DNA of 64,000 nt, from NCBI RefSeq assembly GCF_005116675.2, contig NZ_CP050699.1:186001-250000 (forward strand), read 5' to 3'. The DNA comes from Desulfosediminicola ganghwensis (GTDB lineage: Bacteria; Desulfobacterota; Desulfobulbia; Desulfobulbales; Desulfocapsaceae). The notes under the pieces are model-generated. The model saw only the letters and a program-made list of their open reading frames with translations, did not search any database and was not told the origin of the DNA. Position numbers and translations under genes: made by a program. The number at the start of each line of letters is the position of its first letter. The first letter of the stretch is position 1. Shown here piece after piece: positions 53,681-63,756 of the stretch.

Positions 53681-53696
53681 TACAAACACTGTGCCA
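53681..53696 (-). promoter_or_regulatory. Sigma-54-type promoter candidate for amtB-glnK
   Basis: On the minus strand TGGCAC-AGTGT-TTGTA: perfect -24 element, correct spacing, and one mismatch in the -12 element (GT for GC). Transcription would start about 75 bases before amtB. It fits nitrogen-starvation control. Confidence 0.55.
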
Positions 53697-56069: not shown

Positions 56070-56084
56070 TGGCACACCATTTGC
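56070..56084 (+). promoter_or_regulatory. Sigma-54 promoter of the nifH operon
   Basis: TGGCAC-ACCAT-TTGC matches the -24/-12 consensus at every fixed position with correct spacing. The start site would be near 56096, giving an untranslated leader of about 110 bases. Confidence 0.9.
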
Positions 56085-56173
56085 GATAACAGGTTGCAAC
56101 AGATACACACTGCAACAGGCCGACAGCTTTCAATTGTGTCGGAACACGCAAACCCAAAAACCCAGGTACTTAA

Positions 56174-57031
<858 letters not shown>

Positions 57032-57123
57032 CCGAATTTTATTTTATGCAATTAGTGCTGAACGAATCTCCACATTCCCTGATTCATTCAGCGCACAGCA
57101 CAGACTTGAAGGAGAAATATACC

Positions 57124-57471
57124 ATGATGATCATGATTCGGGCCATCGTTCGACCGGAAAAAGCTGACGACGTACTTGCCGCATTAATGGATGCCGGTTT
57201 CCCCGCAGTTACCAAGTATTCCGTTGCCGGGCGCGGTAAGCAGCGAGGCATCAAGATCGGTGAAGTCACCTATGACGAGATCCCCAAAACCATGCTGGTG
57301 AGTGTTGTTAAAGCGCAGGACAAGGACTTCATCATCAGCACCATTATGAGCGCTGCCCGTTCCGGCACCAAGGGTGCTTTTGGAGACGGCAAGATCTTCG
57401 TGACCGATGTTGAAGATGTATACACCATCAGCTCCGGCATAAAAGAGCCTACAGAGGAGGTGACCGCATGA
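57124..57471 (+). CDS. nifI1: PII-like nitrogenase regulator NifI1
   Basis: PII homologue found between nifH and nifD in archaea and anaerobes. It binds NifDK with NifI2 to switch off activity when ammonium is present, relieved by 2-oxoglutarate. 115 residues from ATG 57124 (AAGGAG ribosome site): MIRAIVRPEKADDVLAALMD start, C-terminal FGDGKIFVTDVEDVYTISSG. The T-loop lacks the uridylylation Tyr of GlnB. Overlaps nifI2 by four bases (ATGA). Confidence 0.95.
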   Translation: MMIMIRAIVRPEKADDVLAALMDAGFPAVTKYSVAGRGKQRGIKIGEVTYDEIPKTMLVSVVKAQDKDFIISTIMSAARSGTKGAFGDGKIFVTDVEDVYTISSGIKEPTEEVTA

Positions 57472-57842
57472 AAGAGGTAATCGCGGTTGTTCGTATGAAT
57501 ATGATGAACCGCACCAAGGCAGCTCTCTCTGATGCTGGTATAGCAGCATATTTTGCCCACGAAGCCCAGGGACGCGGCATGGGTTTCATCAACCCGAAAC
57601 TGCTTGAAGGCGTAGAGCAAGGATATGAAGAGGCCGCAGCACTGCTTGGTGAGAAAGGCAAGCTTTACCCGAAACGCATGGTAACAGCGGTAATTGAGGA
57701 TGATCAGGTGGACGAGGTGGTTGAAGCCATCATCAAAGTCAATCAGACCGGTAAACCCGGCGATGGCAAGATCTTCGTCCTGCCGGTTGCAGATGCAGTA
57801 CGTGTTCGAACCGGAGAATCCGGCTTGAAATCTATCACGTAG
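57468..57842 (+). CDS. nifI2: PII-like nitrogenase regulator NifI2
   Basis: Partner of NifI1 in post-translational switch-off of nitrogenase. 124 residues with the longer T-loop region characteristic of NifI2 (FAHEAQGRGMGFINPKLLEG) and the conserved PII C-terminus [20 protein letters not shown]. It begins in the last codon of nifI1, ensuring paired synthesis. A small hairpin precedes the nifD start 88 bases on. Confidence 0.95.
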   Translation: MKEVIAVVRMNMMNRTKAALSDAGIAAYFAHEAQGRGMGFINPKLLEGVEQGYEEAAALLGEKGKLYPKRMVTAVIEDDQVDEVVEAIIKVNQTGKPGDGKIFVLPVADAVRVRTGESGLKSIT

Positions 57843-57929: not shown

Positions 57930-59567
57930 ATGGGTAAAGCACAGAAAGCCGTTCAGTGGGATCCCACTGACATAAAACAAAAACTCCTTGAAAAGTATCC
58001 GCCCAAGGTTGCCAGAAAACGTGCCAAGCAGATACTTATCAACGAAGCACAGGAAAACACCACGCCGGAGATTACCGCCAACGTGCGAACCATTCCGGGT
58101 ATCATCACTATGCGTGGCTGCACCTACGCCGGCTGTAAGGGCGTTATCATGGGCCCCACCAGCGACATCGTCAATCTGGTCCATGGACCGATCGGCTGCA
58201 GCTTCTACGCCTGGCTGACCAGACGAAACCAGAGCGATGCCTCAGGCCATGAGAACGCCAACTTCATCAACTACTGCATGTCCACGGACATGCAGGACTC
58301 AGACATCATCTTTGGTGGTGAAAAGAAGCTTGAACTTGCCATTCAGGAGGCATATGACACTTTTCACCCCAAGGCTATCGCAATTTTCGCAACCTGCCCT
58401 GTGGGTCTGATCGGTGACGATATTCATGCGGTTGCAAGGAAGATGAAAGAAAAGTTTGGAGACTGTAACGTTTTTGCCTTCAGTTGCGAGGGGTACAAAG
58501 GTGTTTCACAGTCCGCCGGCCACCATATCGCCAACAACCAGGTATTTACTCATCTGGTCGGCAAGAGCGAACAGGAAAAGACCGATAAATACAAGATCAA
58601 CCTCCTGGGCGAGTACAACATCGGCGGTGACGGCTTCGAAATCGACAGAATTTTGAAAAAATGCGGCATCACCAATATCGCCACGTTCTCTGGTAACTCC
58701 ACCTACGACCAGTTCGCTTCAGCCAACCAGGCTGACCTGAGTTGCGTCATGTGTCACCGCTCCATCAACTATGTGGCGGACATGCTGGAGACCAAATACG
58801 GCATCCCCTGGATTAAGGTGAATTTTATCGGCGCCGAGGCGACCGCTAAATCTCTCAGGAAAATTGGCGCCTATTTCGCCGACCAGGAGCTGGTTGACAA
58901 AATCGAAGAGGTTATCGCTGAAGAGATGCCAAGCGTAAAAGCCATCTGTGAGGATGTTCTGCCACGCACCACCGGCAAGACCGCCATGCTGTTCGTCGGC
59001 GGATCGCGCGCCCATCATTACCAGGAACTGTTCAGTGAGATGGGCATGAAGACGCTCTCTGCCGGTTACGAGTTCGCCCATCGCGATGACTATGAAGGCC
59101 GGGAAGTCATTCCCAACCTGAAAGTTGATGCAGACAGCCGTAACATTGAAGAGATCGAAGTCTCGGCAGATCCCGAACTCTTTAAACCACGTAAGAGTGA
59201 AGAAGAGTTGAAAGCGCTTGAAAAATCCGGTTTTGAGTTCAAGGAATATGAAGGCCTTATCCCCGATATGGACAAGGACACCTTGATCATTGATGATCTC
59301 AACCAGTATGAGGCCGAAAAACTCGTAGAGCTGTTAAAGCCGGATATTTTCTGTGCAGGCATCAAGGAGAAGTTCTCCATCCAGAAGCTTGGAATTCCGA
59401 TGAAGCAGCTGCACAGCTATGACTCCGGCGGGCCATACGCAGGTTTCAAAGGGGCGATAAATTTCTATCAGGAAATCGACCGCCTGGTTACCAGCAAGGT
59501 CTGGAGCTACATGAAGGCTCCCTGGGAAGAGAATCCCGAGCTGTCAGCTACTTACGTCTGGGAATAA
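57930..59567 (+). CDS. nifD: Nitrogenase MoFe protein alpha subunit NifD
   Basis: Carries FeMo-co. P-cluster Cys in RGCTYAGCKG, HGPIGCSFYAW and ATCPVGLIGDD; the FeMo-co Cys in MCHRSINYVAD and His in LHSYDSGGPYAGFKG. 545 residues, about 50 longer than the proteobacterial form, with the extra segment near the C-terminal third (residues about 375-450), as in other anaerobes. Good ribosome site AGGAG. An elaborate RNA stem-loop separates it from nifK. Confidence 0.97.
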   Translation: MGKAQKAVQWDPTDIKQKLLEKYPPKVARKRAKQILINEAQENTTPEITANVRTIPGIITMRGCTYAGCKGVIMGPTSDIVNLVHGPIGCSFYAWLTRRNQSDASGHENANFINYCMSTDMQDSDIIFGGEKKLELAIQEAYDTFHPKAIAIFATCPVGLIGDDIHAVARKMKEKFGDCNVFAFSCEGYKGVSQSAGHHIANNQVFTHLVGKSEQEKTDKYKINLLGEYNIGGDGFEIDRILKKCGITNIATFSGNSTYDQFASANQADLSCVMCHRSINYVADMLETKYGIPWIKVNFIGAEATAKSLRKIGAYFADQELVDKIEEVIAEEMPSVKAICEDVLPRTTGKTAMLFVGGSRAHHYQELFSEMGMKTLSAGYEFAHRDDYEGREVIPNLKVDADSRNIEEIEVSADPELFKPRKSEEELKALEKSGFEFKEYEGLIPDMDKDTLIIDDLNQYEAEKLVELLKPDIFCAGIKEKFSIQKLGIPMKQLHSYDSGGPYAGFKGAINFYQEIDRLVTSKVWSYMKAPWEENPELSATYVWE

Positions 59568-59694: not shown

Positions 59695-59727
59695 GTGGAA
59701 CTAAGAGAATCACGAATAGGTACTCAC

Positions 59728-61101
59728 ATGTTACTACGACATACACCAAAAGAAGTTACAGAGCGTAAGGCTCTGACAATCAATCCGGCAAAGACCTGCC
59801 AGCCGATTGGTGCCATGTATGCAGCACTCGGCATTAAGGGCTGCTTGCCGCATAGTCACGGTTCCCAGGGCTGTTGTGCCTACCATAGATCTACCCTGAC
59901 CAGGCATTATAAAGAGCCGATCTCAGCCGCGACAAGTTCCTTTACCGAGGGTGCATCAGTTTTTGGCGGCCAGGCGAACCTGCTGCAGGCTATCAATAAT
60001 ATCTTTACCGTTTACGAGCCTGAAGTAATCGCTGTTCACACCACCTGCCTCTCCGAAACCATTGGTGACGACCTGCCGCAGATCTTCGACAAGGCGATCA
60101 AGGAGAAAAAGGTTCCGGAAGGCAAGACGGTTCTGGGTGCTCCCACCCCAAGTTATGTCGGCTCACATGTAACCGGCTTTTCCAACATGGTCAAAGCCAT
60201 GGCGGCTCTTGCCCGGAAAAGCGAAAACAGAAACGGCAAGGTCAATATCATCCCGGGCTGGGTAGAGCCATGCGACATGGAAGAAATCAAGCGTCTCGCG
60301 GCCATGATGGATGTAAAGATCAACATGTTCCCGGACACTTCCGGAGTCCTGAACGGTCCACTCAATGGCGAGTACCACATGTTCCCTGATGGTGGTACCC
60401 CGATTGAGGACATCAAGAGCAGCGGTGATGCAAGCGGTACTCTCGCCCTCGGCGAATGGTGCTCTGCCGATGCGGCACGGACCCTCGACTCCAAATGCAA
60501 GGTTCCCTGTTCCGTACTTGATATGCCGTTCGGCCTGCAGGCAACAGATCGTTTCATCGATGCTTTGAGAAAAATCGCCGGCACCTCTGTGGCCGAAGAG
60601 GTCTCTGCTGAACGTGGTCAGCTGGTCGATATGATTTCTGATATGCACCAGTATTTCTATCACAAGAAAGTAGCGATTTTCGGTGACCCTGATCAGTTGA
60701 TCTCCATGGTTGAGTTCCTGGTCGCCATCGATATGTGCCCTATTCACATCGTCACAGGTACCCCCGGCAAGAAATTCGAGCGCCGTATTAAAGAGATTAC
60801 CAAGGACGTCCCGTATGAAGTGAATGTCAAGGCTGCCGGAGATATGTTCCTGCTCCACCAGTGGATTAAGAACGAGCCTGTCGATCTGCTGATCGGTAAC
60901 ACCTATGGCAAATATATGGCCCGGGACGAAGACATCCCGTTTATCCGCTGGGGCTTTCCTATCCTCGACCGCCAGGGGCATCAGTACTTCCCGACTGTCG
61001 GATACAAGGGCGGTATCAGGATGCTTGAAAAAATTCTTGGAGTACTTCTCGACCGGATGGATCGTGATAATCCGGAGGAGAAGTTCGAACTCGTCTACTA
61101 G
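59728..61101 (+). CDS. nifK: Nitrogenase MoFe protein beta subunit NifK
   Basis: 457 residues from ATG 59728; the upstream in-frame extension to 59695 is unlikely. P-cluster Cys in NPAKTCQPIGAMYAALG, GSQGCCAYHR and VHTTCLSETIGDDL. FDGPTSTG-like loop replaced by the short-N-terminus form, lacking the ~50-residue N-terminal extension of Azotobacter NifK, as is usual for anaerobes. The ribosome site (AGG) is weak and lies beyond the spacer stem-loop. Confidence 0.97.
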   Translation: MLLRHTPKEVTERKALTINPAKTCQPIGAMYAALGIKGCLPHSHGSQGCCAYHRSTLTRHYKEPISAATSSFTEGASVFGGQANLLQAINNIFTVYEPEVIAVHTTCLSETIGDDLPQIFDKAIKEKKVPEGKTVLGAPTPSYVGSHVTGFSNMVKAMAALARKSENRNGKVNIIPGWVEPCDMEEIKRLAAMMDVKINMFPDTSGVLNGPLNGEYHMFPDGGTPIEDIKSSGDASGTLALGEWCSADAARTLDSKCKVPCSVLDMPFGLQATDRFIDALRKIAGTSVAEEVSAERGQLVDMISDMHQYFYHKKVAIFGDPDQLISMVEFLVAIDMCPIHIVTGTPGKKFERRIKEITKDVPYEVNVKAAGDMFLLHQWIKNEPVDLLIGNTYGKYMARDEDIPFIRWGFPILDRQGHQYFPTVGYKGGIRMLEKILGVLLDRMDRDNPEEKFELVY

Positions 61102-61226
61102 GGGACGGGAACACCGTTGATCCAGACTTCGCTGCATACGAACACAGGCCTCTCGCTCAAAATCGCATGCAGCGATTCAACAACAGGCGAATTGATCACC
61201 ATATCCAGCAGAAAAGGAAAAAGAAC

Positions 61227-62384
61227 ATGGGCAGAAACGAACAAGCTGGCGCCGGGAAACTTCCCGATTGCAAACATACGGCACCTAACCCCGGCATAGT
61301 TCAGCTCACCGTCGCACCACGGGTCAATCACCGAATCCGTTTTTCACCGCTCAACGGCAAAAATCAATCACTGATTATGCCACAGGCCGCAGTGGAAAAA
61401 ATCCGGGAGCTGGAACAGGTAGGCTCCAGGATTGATGGAGTACTGATCTACGGTCCGGGTGATCCTCTGGCCGAAATCGAACTTCCCCTTGAGACGGTAC
61501 GATTAATCAGGCAACAGTACCCTGATCTGCCGATTAGTATTCGTACGCTGGGTATCGGAGGCCTGCAACACGCTGACAAGCTTGGCAAGGCAGGAGTAAC
61601 CGAGGTTGAAGTTCTGGTGGATGCCGTCGAGCCAGCGGTTATGGAAAAAATCTACGCCTGGGTCCGACCTGGCTTCAAAACCTTGAAGCTCTCTGAGGCA
61701 ACAGCAACATTGGCCAGAGAACAATCCCATGCCATACAGGCCTTCCAGGACGCTGGCTTAAAAATTCGCATCGTCTCGACCCTCTATCCCATGGTCAATG
61801 ACGATCAATTTGAATTGCTGGCCAAAAAAATGGCAGAGCTTGGTGCTGACGAGATGGTACTCCATCCGTATGCACCCGAAATCGAGGCCGATATAAGCCT
61901 TCCGGAACCCAGCCCGGAGCTCATGGCCACCGTTGTCGGCAAAATCGCCAACATCCTCCCGGCCATAGAGGGCAGACCCGCAGTGATAGAGACAGCAGGT
62001 TGTAATGAAGCAGCCAACAATCTGCCAAAACCCAAAGAGGACCGGCCCAACATAGCAGTGGTCAGCTCAAACGGCATGGAGGTAGATCTGCATCTTGGCC
62101 AGGCACCACAACTGCTTATCTACGGGCCCAGGGAAGATGGCTTGAAATGCTTACTTGAGTGCCGACCGGCACCACAGCCCGGAGAAGGAAAAGAGCGCTG
62201 GGACATCCTCGCCGGCACCATCCCTGACTGTTTTGCCCTGCTTGCGGCAAGCGCAGGAGATCGACCACGGAGGATTCTGGACCGGCACGGCATCAACGTG
62301 CTTATTACCCATGACAATATCGAAGGCAGTGTCGATTTGCTCTATGGCGGCGAACGCAAAAAAGGCTGCGGCAAGAAAGCGTAA
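61227..62384 (+). CDS. NifB-like/NifX fusion lacking the radical-SAM cysteines
   Basis: 385 residues from ATG 61227 (AAAAGG ribosome site). Residues about 30-260 align with the NifB radical-SAM domain: VAPRVNHRIRFSPLNG stands where NifB has VAPxCNxxCNxCNRK, so the three cluster cysteines are Val, Ile and Ser; GPGDPLAEIELPLET, IYAWV and the DAGLKIRIVSTLYP region are otherwise NifB-like. Residues about 285-385 are a NifX/NifB C-terminal cofactor-binding domain (IAVVSSNGMEVDLHLGQAPQ). It therefore cannot do NifB's radical chemistry; a cofactor carrier, scaffold or regulatory role is inferred. It follows nifK by 125 bases, so is probably in the operon. Confidence 0.8.
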   Translation: MGRNEQAGAGKLPDCKHTAPNPGIVQLTVAPRVNHRIRFSPLNGKNQSLIMPQAAVEKIRELEQVGSRIDGVLIYGPGDPLAEIELPLETVRLIRQQYPDLPISIRTLGIGGLQHADKLGKAGVTEVEVLVDAVEPAVMEKIYAWVRPGFKTLKLSEATATLAREQSHAIQAFQDAGLKIRIVSTLYPMVNDDQFELLAKKMAELGADEMVLHPYAPEIEADISLPEPSPELMATVVGKIANILPAIEGRPAVIETAGCNEAANNLPKPKEDRPNIAVVSSNGMEVDLHLGQAPQLLIYGPREDGLKCLLECRPAPQPGEGKERWDILAGTIPDCFALLAASAGDRPRRILDRHGINVLITHDNIEGSVDLLYGGERKKGCGKKA

Positions 62385-62387
62385 AAG

Positions 62388-62442
62388 GTTGGACGTTGGA
62401 CGTTGGACGTTGGACGTTGGACGTTGGACGTTGGACGTTGGA
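62388..62442. repeat. Heptamer tandem repeat (GTTGGAC), seven copies plus partial
   Basis: GTTGGAC repeats perfectly seven times, then GTTGGA. It starts four bases after the NifB-like stop and ends 40 bases before the next gene. Its number may vary by slippage. It has no coding role. Confidence 0.92.
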
Positions 62443-62481: not shown

Positions 62482-62784
62482 ATGGCAACACCGGAAAAAC
62501 AAATACTTGTTTGTCAGAGTTTCAGATTAAAAGGTGACCCGAAAGGAATCTGCCACAAGCAGACTGATGGCTTTCTGCAATACATTGAGGAGGAAATCCT
62601 CGACCGTGGCCTCGATATGCAGGTCGTTGCGACCGGTTGCCTGAAACAATGCGAGTCTGGGCCTGTGATGGTGGTCCAGCCGGAGAACTGGTGGTTCAAA
62701 GGTGTGGACAGCGAGGAAGCTATCGATACCATACTCGACTCCATCGAAGATGGTGAGCCGGCAGCAGAATATCTGATTTCCTGA
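62482..62784 (+). CDS. Thioredoxin-like [2Fe-2S] ferredoxin of the nif cluster
   Basis: 100 residues with the thioredoxin-fold [2Fe-2S] cysteine pattern: one Cys in LVCQSFR and one in GICHKQT, then GCLKQCESGP with the last pair. Such proteins accompany nif genes in many diazotrophs and may donate electrons or shield nitrogenase, but the function is not settled. The ribosome site AAAGGA lies upstream and the GNAT gene follows four bases after its stop, so they are co-translated. Confidence 0.85.
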   Translation: MATPEKQILVCQSFRLKGDPKGICHKQTDGFLQYIEEEILDRGLDMQVVATGCLKQCESGPVMVVQPENWWFKGVDSEEAIDTILDSIEDGEPAAEYLIS

Positions 62785-62788
62785 GCGC

Positions 62789-63247
62789 ATGACCAGAAGC
62801 CAGGCAACAATACGGCCCGCCAAAACCAAAGATATCGAGACAATGGCAGCTCTTCTGGCTGAACTGTTTGATGTCGAAGAGGACTTTCAGGGTGATGCAA
62901 AACGACAACTCAAAGGTCTCAGGATGCTGCTTGAATCTGATCAGGCTATTGTTCTGGTCGCCGAGGTACAAGGGGAAGTCGTTGGAATGTGCACCGGCCA
63001 GACCCTGATTTCCACAGCCGAAGGCGGGCCGGCCCTGCTGGTGGAAGATGTAGTTATAGACCAAAAGTTCAGGCAAAGAGGTATTGGCAGACAACTGCTT
63101 GAATCCATAGCAGACAAGGCGGGCCGCCACTCCATATCACGCCTGCAGTTACTTGCCGATCGCAACAACAGTGCAGCGCTGGACTTTTATCGCAAGACAG
63201 GCTGGAACTCTACCGATCTCATCTGTCTGAGAAGTCGCGTTCCATAG
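62789..63247 (+). CDS. GNAT-family N-acetyltransferase
   Basis: 152 residues, GNAT fold: VVIDQKFRQRGIGRQLLESI holds the acetyl-CoA-binding R/Q-x-x-G-x-G/A loop, followed by the ISRLQLLADRNNSAALDFYRKTGW segment typical of motif B. The acceptor is unknown. It starts four bases after the [2Fe-2S] gene and lies in the nif operon, so a nitrogenase-linked substrate or protein is possible. Confidence 0.85.
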   Translation: MTRSQATIRPAKTKDIETMAALLAELFDVEEDFQGDAKRQLKGLRMLLESDQAIVLVAEVQGEVVGMCTGQTLISTAEGGPALLVEDVVIDQKFRQRGIGRQLLESIADKAGRHSISRLQLLADRNNSAALDFYRKTGWNSTDLICLRSRVP

Positions 63248-63309: not shown

Positions 63310-63756
63310 ATGCAAACAACTCTCATCCAGCCCAAAGAGCTCATTGTCTCCATTGACGACTGGCAGGATTACCTCAGGGATGGACAACAGTTTCTGAGCA
63401 CAGCCGTCGGCGCTTTCAGCAAAAAGCGAAAGGCATTTACCTCAGAGGCACTGTATAACATCACAGCCATGGCCATTGAAAAGCTGATAATGGGCTTTCT
63501 CATGAAAAATGGTGACCTGGCAGAAAACCACACCATGACAGATCTTGCCGCCGCACTTGAACGACATACCGGACCACTGCCGGATCTCCATAAAAAACTG
63601 CTCTTTCTCGACAGCTTCCAGGATATCTGCGACCCGGATGAATACCAGTACGTAGTCCCCGACGAACACCAGGTTTCGGTCATCCTGGATATTGGCCTTG
63701 AAGTTCAGCAGCTTATTTTGCCGCTGGTGCAACAAAACCGGACCAAACCGTCATAA
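63310..63756 (+). CDS. HEPN-like protein in the nif cluster
   Basis: 148 residues, all helical. The middle (NITAMAIEKLIMGFLMKNGD then ENHTMTDLAAALERH) resembles the HEPN fold, where a polar residue pair near the last helix binds nucleotides or RNA; assignment is from pattern only, and the canonical RxxxxH is not clear. It follows the GNAT gene by 62 bases with an AGGAGG ribosome site, so it is in the nif operon. Confidence 0.55.
   Translation: MQTTLIQPKELIVSIDDWQDYLRDGQQFLSTAVGAFSKKRKAFTSEALYNITAMAIEKLIMGFLMKNGDLAENHTMTDLAAALERHTGPLPDLHKKLLFLDSFQDICDPDEYQYVVPDEHQVSVILDIGLEVQQLILPLVQQNRTKPS

Follow-up and report, generated by a model that had tools for sequence, protein, structure and literature searches.

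A Predicted Catalytically Dead NifB Paralogue with a NifX-Type Domain Behind nifK in Desulfosediminicola ganghwensis and Its Relatives

The Locus

The window analysed here is a stretch of 64,000 nucleotides from Desulfosediminicola ganghwensis (contig NZ_CP050699.1, positions 186,001 to 250,000 of the forward strand), and its gene of interest, referred to as pseudo-NifB/X, lies at 61227..62384 (+). The gene encodes 385 amino acids plus a stop codon, as assigned from the translated open reading frame (ORF), the profiles PF02579 and TIGR01290, and family sequences. The frame is open further upstream, where an ATG at 61167 would give 405 amino acids; an AAGGA-like stretch precedes 61227. The product combines a NifB-like barrel (residues 27–245; 61305..61961, +; alignment to NifB and Foldseek) with a C-terminal NifX-type domain that contains His289 and Cys335 (residues 273–376; 62043..62354, +; PF02579 and alignments). 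A preliminary description, made from the letters alone, had regarded it as a NifB-like/NifX fusion located directly after nifK. The position is borne out: nifK (59695..61101, +), which served as the query for the nifK search, ends 126 bases before the start of pseudo-NifB/X.

The gene order is nifH, nifI1, nifI2, nifD, nifK, pseudo-NifB/X, a small 2Fe-2S ferredoxin-type gene, and a GNAT acetyltransferase gene. nifH (56204..57031, +) and nifD (57930..59567, +) were assigned from the ORFs of the window and the order conserved in relatives, and nifI1 and nifI2, which encode PII-type regulators (57046..57842, +), from homologs labelled P-II on two D. vulgaris plasmids. The gene behind pseudo-NifB/X (62485..62784, +) codes for a small relative of thioredoxin-like [2Fe-2S] ferredoxins; it matches PF01257 below the cut-off (E=0.048), and its D. 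vulgaris homologs are annotated as '(2Fe-2S) ferredoxin domain-containing'. The class and the phylum mentioned below are Desulfobulbia and Desulfobacterota in GTDB terms; the NCBI phylum name shown for the named loci is Thermodesulfobacteriota.

The NifB-Like Barrel and Its Lost Catalytic Sites

The N-terminal part is clearly related to NifB, as initially proposed. TIGR01290 matches the protein with E=3.2e-31 and 108.5 bits, below its cut-off of 343.65. The NifB structure 7jma of the PDB matches the N-terminal two thirds with E=1e-18, and a profile of 11 family sequences matches 6y1x with E=2.2e-35. An AlphaFold2 model based on 11 sequences, confident over approximately residues 50–250, resembles NifB: the five best PDB matches found by Foldseek are all NifB, apo-NifB 7jma having a template modelling (TM) score of 0.94 (target length) and a root-mean-square deviation of 1.7. 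The 6y1x profile match and the Foldseek result rule out an unrelated barrel family.

In the residue alignment to 7jma, the cysteines of the radical S-adenosylmethionine (radical-SAM, RS) motif Cx3Cx2C correspond to V33, I37, and S40, the same Val, Ile, and Ser that had been read from the letters. The other catalytic sites were followed in 58 family sequences, which were obtained from 82 rows by merging those sharing the last 200 residues and excluding frames shorter than 300 amino acids, and were compared with 28 NifBs. The ligands of MtNifB, namely C29, H42, E65, and C128 for K1, C273 and C276 for K2, and C62 as the fourth RS ligand (PMC9692996; here and below, cited papers are represented by excerpts), were mapped onto the family by alignment. 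The first and second RS cysteines are present in 0/58 sequences each and the third in 2/58. The loop that carries C62 and E65 is deleted in all 58, the C128-equivalent is Cys in seven, and the K2 cysteine pair is kept in 1/58 and 3/58. The positions N118, K191, and N193 (own NifB numbering), invariant in NifB, are each kept in a single sequence of the 58. The window's own protein retains none of the mapped K1 and K2 ligands. GPGD is kept at residues 76–79, and both of its glycines occur in 58/58 sequences.

The motif CxxxCxxC was found nowhere in the 58 sequences, nor in the 71 distinct sequences of a recount over all fetched loci, which are the loci that the motif checks cover. Its absence from all 71 rules out a move of the cysteines to another site. 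A reading error is very unlikely because relatives show the same loss. With the mapped NifB cluster ligands lost or not conserved, the sequence supports the idea of a pseudo-enzyme put forward in the preliminary description: pseudo-NifB/X appears to be a catalytically dead paralogue of NifB.

The NifX-Type Domain

The C-terminal domain turned out to be intact, as had been noticed at the outset: PF02579 matches with 29.7 bits, above the cut-off of 26.3, and His289 is kept. Profile matches were obtained to 1p90, the NafY core (E=3.5e-5), and to 9ian (E=0.019). In these alignments, H35 of NifX (9ian) and the His of 1p90 both fall on His289. This His and Cys335 are each conserved in 58/58 family sequences, and [DN]xHLG, the motif that carries the His, occurs in 71/71 distinct sequences. 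H35 of NifX is the residue that binds the NifB cofactor (NifB-co), with equivalents in NifB, NafY, and VnfX and none in NifY and NafX (PMC13128457). At the level of sequence, the earlier proposal that the protein binds or passes a cofactor finds support. Pseudo-NifB/X ends about 10 residues past the domain, so that, judging by length, a long C-terminal extension appears to be absent; NifX docks on NifE through an extra C-terminal helix (PMC13128457).

Distribution and Linkage to nifK

An ortholog of pseudo-NifB/X is present in 141 of the 257 genomes of the class, as judged by matches of at least 191 bits in a search where NifB matches reach 178 bits. At least 148 of the genomes have nifK among the matches listed (at least 529 bits), a scope that applies to all nifK counts given here, and 134 of these 148 carry both genes. 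In 123 of the 134, pseudo-NifB/X follows nifK in the same orientation, and the gap in those 123 genomes is 21–698 bases, with a median of 145. Seven genomes have pseudo-NifB/X and no nifK among the matches listed, and 14 have nifK and no pseudo-NifB/X match. Among the 14, G142 has a partial copy and G218 a form reduced to the NifX domain, and in G172 and G205 the contig stops at nifK or shortly behind it. Outside the class, nine genomes of three families (f29, f54, f91) were found to carry the gene when 395 genomes sampled from the phylum were examined. The named loci include those of Desulfocapsaceae and Candidatus Electronema. A wider scan of genome contigs with patterns from one protein gave 10 loci, and the seven plasmid records opened, out of 30 listed and 209 with a match, each show a true NifB or a region of NifB.

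The linkage to the 2Fe-2S gene was followed in 67 distinct loci, 66 of them with enough sequence. By script, the gene follows pseudo-NifB/X within 600 bases in 62 of the 66; in L103 it lies at 2.0 kb, and three more loci were recognised by inspection.

Ancestry and Selection

Maximum-likelihood trees resolve the family, relative to true NifB, as one clade within the NifBs of the phylum. The first tree comprised 43 of the 58 family sequences and 25 of the 28 NifBs, and gave the clade a Shimodaira–Hasegawa-like approximate likelihood ratio test (SH-aLRT) value of 100; in the second, with 22 family rows and without L075, a long row, or L109, whose composition is odd, the support is 100/100. The NifBs of the phylum, family included, stand apart from five NifBs taken from three other phyla (support 100/99). 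The stem branch of the family is long (1.1–1.3), and its closest NifB sister differs between the two trees, with a support of 80/57. A single duplication of a two-domain NifB would be the simplest history.

The mean pairwise identity within the family is 0.411 for the barrel and 0.645 for the NifX domain vs. 0.606 and 0.546, respectively, within NifB. The NifX domain is the better conserved part in a fraction of 1.00 of the family pairs, as compared to 0.09 of the NifB pairs. The ratio of nonsynonymous to synonymous substitutions (dN/dS; Nei-Gojobori, 28 pairs) ranges from 0.10 to 0.43 for the barrel and from 0.01 to 0.17 for the NifX domain. The constraint has shifted from the barrel to the NifX domain; both parts are constrained, the latter more strongly.

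Two genomes show departures in the barrel. In G026 its start is degenerate. In G218, nifK and the 2Fe-2S gene flank a gene for a NifX-only protein of 144 amino acids (L141:8688-9122), devoid of the barrel. This protein shares 56% identity with the NifX domain of pseudo-NifB/X vs. 37% with that of NifB, and its nearest rows in a separate tree of few columns are family members, the placement being without support. This form may represent a natural experiment.

True NifB and Separate NifX-Like Proteins

The genome to which the window belongs (5.65 Mb, one contig) contains one NifB above the TIGR01290 cut-off, at contig positions 264022-265299. It is preceded by nifE and nifN and lies about 16 kb downstream of pseudo-NifB/X; a cysteine-containing NifB thus exists elsewhere in the genome. 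PF02579 has seven matches there, two of them being pseudo-NifB/X and NifB. Four further proteins are short and away from nif, three beside ParA/Mrp-like genes (by reading) and one elsewhere, and as nif members they are rejected by their gene neighbours. The seventh match is the C-terminal domain of a 448-amino-acid protein that by reading resembles a cation-efflux transporter (L014:4907-6253; G000:C1:4999906-5001252). Other genomes, too, have PF02579 matches in long frames distant from nif. Searches with PF02579 and for NifX-like proteins found no nif-linked standalone NifX-type protein besides NifB in the window's genome.

According to the preliminary description, the fusion could stand in for NifX-type carriers. 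As a rule this does not hold. A separate NifX-like protein occurs in 31 of the 257 class genomes at E<=4e-24 (36 at 1e-12). Pseudo-NifB/X accompanies it in 26 of the 31, and this coexistence rejects simple replacement and suggests that the two jobs probably differ. The count leaves out the weaker G236, G239, G241, G242, and G246; pseudo-NifB/X is present in two of these, G236 and G242. The NifX-like gene adjoins NifB where examined (G248, G113), as it does by coordinates in G073, G080, G094, and G252. At L156:9512-9865 and L157:3362-3832, a standalone NifX-like gene sits directly after nifB. In the tree of few columns, which has 30 family rows, the NifX-like proteins and pseudo-NifB/X are separate. 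Among the matches listed, a NifX-like gene next to NifB was seen in 5 of 10 examined genomes without pseudo-NifB/X and in 1 of 18 with it; the comparison relies on our own reading of related genomes and is therefore no test. The skewed distribution would be consistent with functions that overlap in part.

Other Features of the Window

A sigma-54-type promoter-like site with one mismatch lies upstream of nifH (56070..56085, +) and is weak; five matches of this type were observed in the window vs. 3.4 expected, which is near chance. Another site with one mismatch is found just upstream of amtB/glnK (53681-53696, −). The promoter and terminator scans gave results at chance level. A perfect tandem repeat of the heptamer GTTGGAC, 7.9 copies long, occupies 62388-62442, starting three bases past the pseudo-NifB/X stop codon and ahead of the 2Fe-2S gene. 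It is the sole 7-mer array of at least four copies in the window, and in the loci of other genomes no GTTGGAC repeat of at least three copies was seen.

Many nif operons of the class contain a homolog of the GNAT acetyltransferase gene (62789-63247). Further downstream, 63310-63756 encodes a HEPN-like protein (PF05168, E=0.064, below the cut-off). Its homologs often lie behind nif operons, and they also occur where nifK is of another type and pseudo-NifB/X is absent from the genome (L116, L117).

Possible Function and Alternative Explanations

Since the catalytic sites are lost and the cofactor-holding part is kept, the protein probably carries or inserts a cofactor and does not make it. On balance, the data incline us towards a dead NifB paralogue that has become a NafY/NifX-like protein and carries or inserts the cofactor, acting on NifDK. 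A duplicated two-domain NifB would have lost catalysis and been retained as a cofactor-binding protein. Its C-terminal domain would hold NifB-co or the iron-molybdenum cofactor (FeMo-co) via His289, and the dead barrel could serve for docking or tethering, a task that falls to the N-terminal domain in NafY. The most likely partner would be apo-NifDK, because the gene is mostly right behind nifDK; the apoprotein would be kept receptive and the cofactor delivered to it or inserted. The sequences themselves show that the catalytic sites are lost, that the His is conserved, that the constraint has shifted, that the gene is linked to nifK and to the 2Fe-2S gene, that one natural variant has the NifX domain only, and that some lineages lack the gene. 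That a cofactor is bound, which one it is, that the barrel docks, and on what are all points that we infer from sequence. A broader version is tentative: most nitrogenase-bearing members of the class, together with scattered members of three other families, might deliver the cofactor by a dead copy of NifB whose old docking surface hands NifB-co or FeMo-co straight to NifDK.

Several observations weigh against the proposed carrier or insertase. In Candidatus Electronema and several f12 relatives, pseudo-NifB/X sits with the 2Fe-2S gene apart from nifDK; in G177, G182, G171, and other f12 members, the pair is away from nifHDK, mostly near glnK or amtB. The argument for NifDK as the partner is thereby weakened. 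In G075 (one contig), G080, G094, and G185, nifK is followed by the 2Fe-2S gene with no pseudo-NifB/X; G097 has an 86-amino-acid ORF between the two and likewise no pseudo-NifB/X, and on two D. vulgaris plasmids the gene is missing between nifK and the ferredoxin gene. This type of nitrogenase can therefore do without pseudo-NifB/X. The gene is present in genus-mates of G094 and G185 and in family-mates of G075 and G097, so it has probably been lost more than once, in some lineages. In D. vulgaris, the nif cluster genes are important when the organism grows on N2, with one gene lacking data (PMC10102598); this has no bearing on pseudo-NifB/X.

Further points concern the protein itself. The position of the K1 ligand C29 is Cys in 29/58 family sequences and that of H42 is His in 14/58, which means that some members retain the N-terminal half of the K1 site. 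The NifX domain lacks a confident AlphaFold2 model: modelled alone it has a mean predicted local distance difference test (pLDDT) score of 44.7, and it is also poor in the full model. The targeting domain of NafY has a fold different from that of the NifB barrel. The barrel is under purifying selection and kept in nearly all members, and must therefore have some role, the kind of which is a guess. G218 is a draft genome, 85% complete, and its short form could therefore be an effect of assembly.

Pseudo-NifB/X could instead be a shuttle of the NifX type, collecting NifB-co from true NifB and bringing it to NifEN; its dead barrel would then imitate NifB during docking. It has the His and the fold family in common with NifX, the family originates from NifB, and no nif-linked standalone NifX was found in the window's own genome. 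We nevertheless consider a shuttle unlikely, given the location just behind nifK in 123 of the 134 genomes, the coexistence with a NifX-like protein in 26 genomes, and the early end of the protein after its NifX domain, whereas NifX docks on NifE through the C-terminal helix (PMC13128457). A regulator, storage protein, or placeholder, one that holds back the cofactor or NifB/NifDK and does not deliver, would agree with the position behind the PII-type nifI genes, with the lack of the gene in several lineages, and with the suggestion that NifY and NafX are placeholders or antagonists (PMC13128457). However, these named placeholder proteins are, in the text available, without the His that is invariant in the pseudo-NifB/X family, and such a role seems rather improbable. 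For regulation of NifB, which the preliminary description had raised, there is evidence neither way beyond the gene position, beside nifK and not nifB.

The neighbouring 2Fe-2S protein brings up a joint role in the protection or repair of NifDK. The gene follows pseudo-NifB/X in the 66 loci, within 600 bases in 62 of them, the pair stays together where it is apart from nifDK, and a thioredoxin-like [2Fe-2S] ferredoxin of C. pasteurianum interacts with the MoFe protein (cited in PMC8561814). But the 2Fe-2S gene also stands behind nifK where pseudo-NifB/X is absent, so the pairing may be just inherited order, and FeSI of A. vinelandii shows no such interaction (PMC8561814, in the portion seen); there is little chance of such a partnership. 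Still less credible is a catalytic Fe-S cluster held by other ligands. The GPGD motif with both its glycines in 58/58 sequences and the Cys near the N-terminus in 29/58 would suit it; the barrel, however, contains no conserved set of cysteines, and the NifB-invariant N118, K191, and N193 survive in 1/58 each. As for a decaying pseudogene, the lost catalytic residues, the degenerate barrel of G026, and the missing one of G218 are opposed by open frames of at least 300 amino acids in 71 distinct sequences, by a dN/dS below 0.5 in each of the 28 pairs, and by the presence of the gene in 134 of the 148 nifK genomes. We take this explanation as refuted for the family; isolated decay is rejected by the family's spread and dN/dS.

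Pseudo-NifB/X seems to be a stable paralogue of a radical-SAM enzyme, catalytically dead, that most genomes of the class with nifK keep in their nif operons, Candidatus Electronema included. The class consists of sediment bacteria, where 134 of 148 nifK genomes carry the gene. Many nitrogenase-bearing bacteria of the sulfur cycle thus have such a NifB copy directly behind their nitrogenase genes. The protein would offer a natural separation of two functions of NifB, making the cofactor and holding it, and is a candidate FeMo-co carrier or insertase for genomes in which, as in the window's, no further NifX-type protein linked to nif was found apart from NifB. It may be mistaken for NifB in surveys based on counts of NifB or 'NifB/NifX' matches.

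Comparison with Known Systems

Arragain et al. (2017) excluded 28% of putative NifBs, most of them without Cx3Cx2C and each with a NifX domain, and took the Cys-less sequences as 'instead NifX' (PMC5715403). The available part of that paper describes no class with a NifB barrel, linkage to nifK, or lineage; members of the pseudo-NifB/X family may be among the excluded sequences. The possibly nonfunctional NifB copies of Paenibacillus differ from pseudo-NifB/X because their two-domain forms keep the motifs (PMC8287671). In the excerpts searched, no description of pseudo-NifB/X as a class was found, which agrees with the initial statement that no function has been described for this form.

Pseudo-NifB/X has the domain order and the barrel fold of NifB and originates within the NifBs of the phylum. 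It differs from NifB in that the RS, K1, and K2 sites are lost or not conserved, the loop is deleted, and the TIGR01290 score is below the cut-off; it is mostly located behind nifK and coexists with a true NifB. A comparable position is that of nifY, just downstream of nifHDK(T). NifY, however, is without the cofactor His (PMC13128457, as excerpted), whereas this residue is present in every pseudo-NifB/X sequence examined. With NifX and VnfX, pseudo-NifB/X shares the NifX-type domain and its His; it differs from them in the added barrel, the apparent absence of a long C-terminal extension, the separate position in the tree of few columns, and its coexistence with NifX-like proteins. NafY, the FeMo-co chaperone of A. 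vinelandii, is likewise a two-domain protein with a C-terminal NifX-type core and an aligned His (its role is described in PMC13128457), but its N-terminal part is a sterile-alpha-motif domain that targets apo-NifDK, whereas that of pseudo-NifB/X is a putatively dead NifB barrel.
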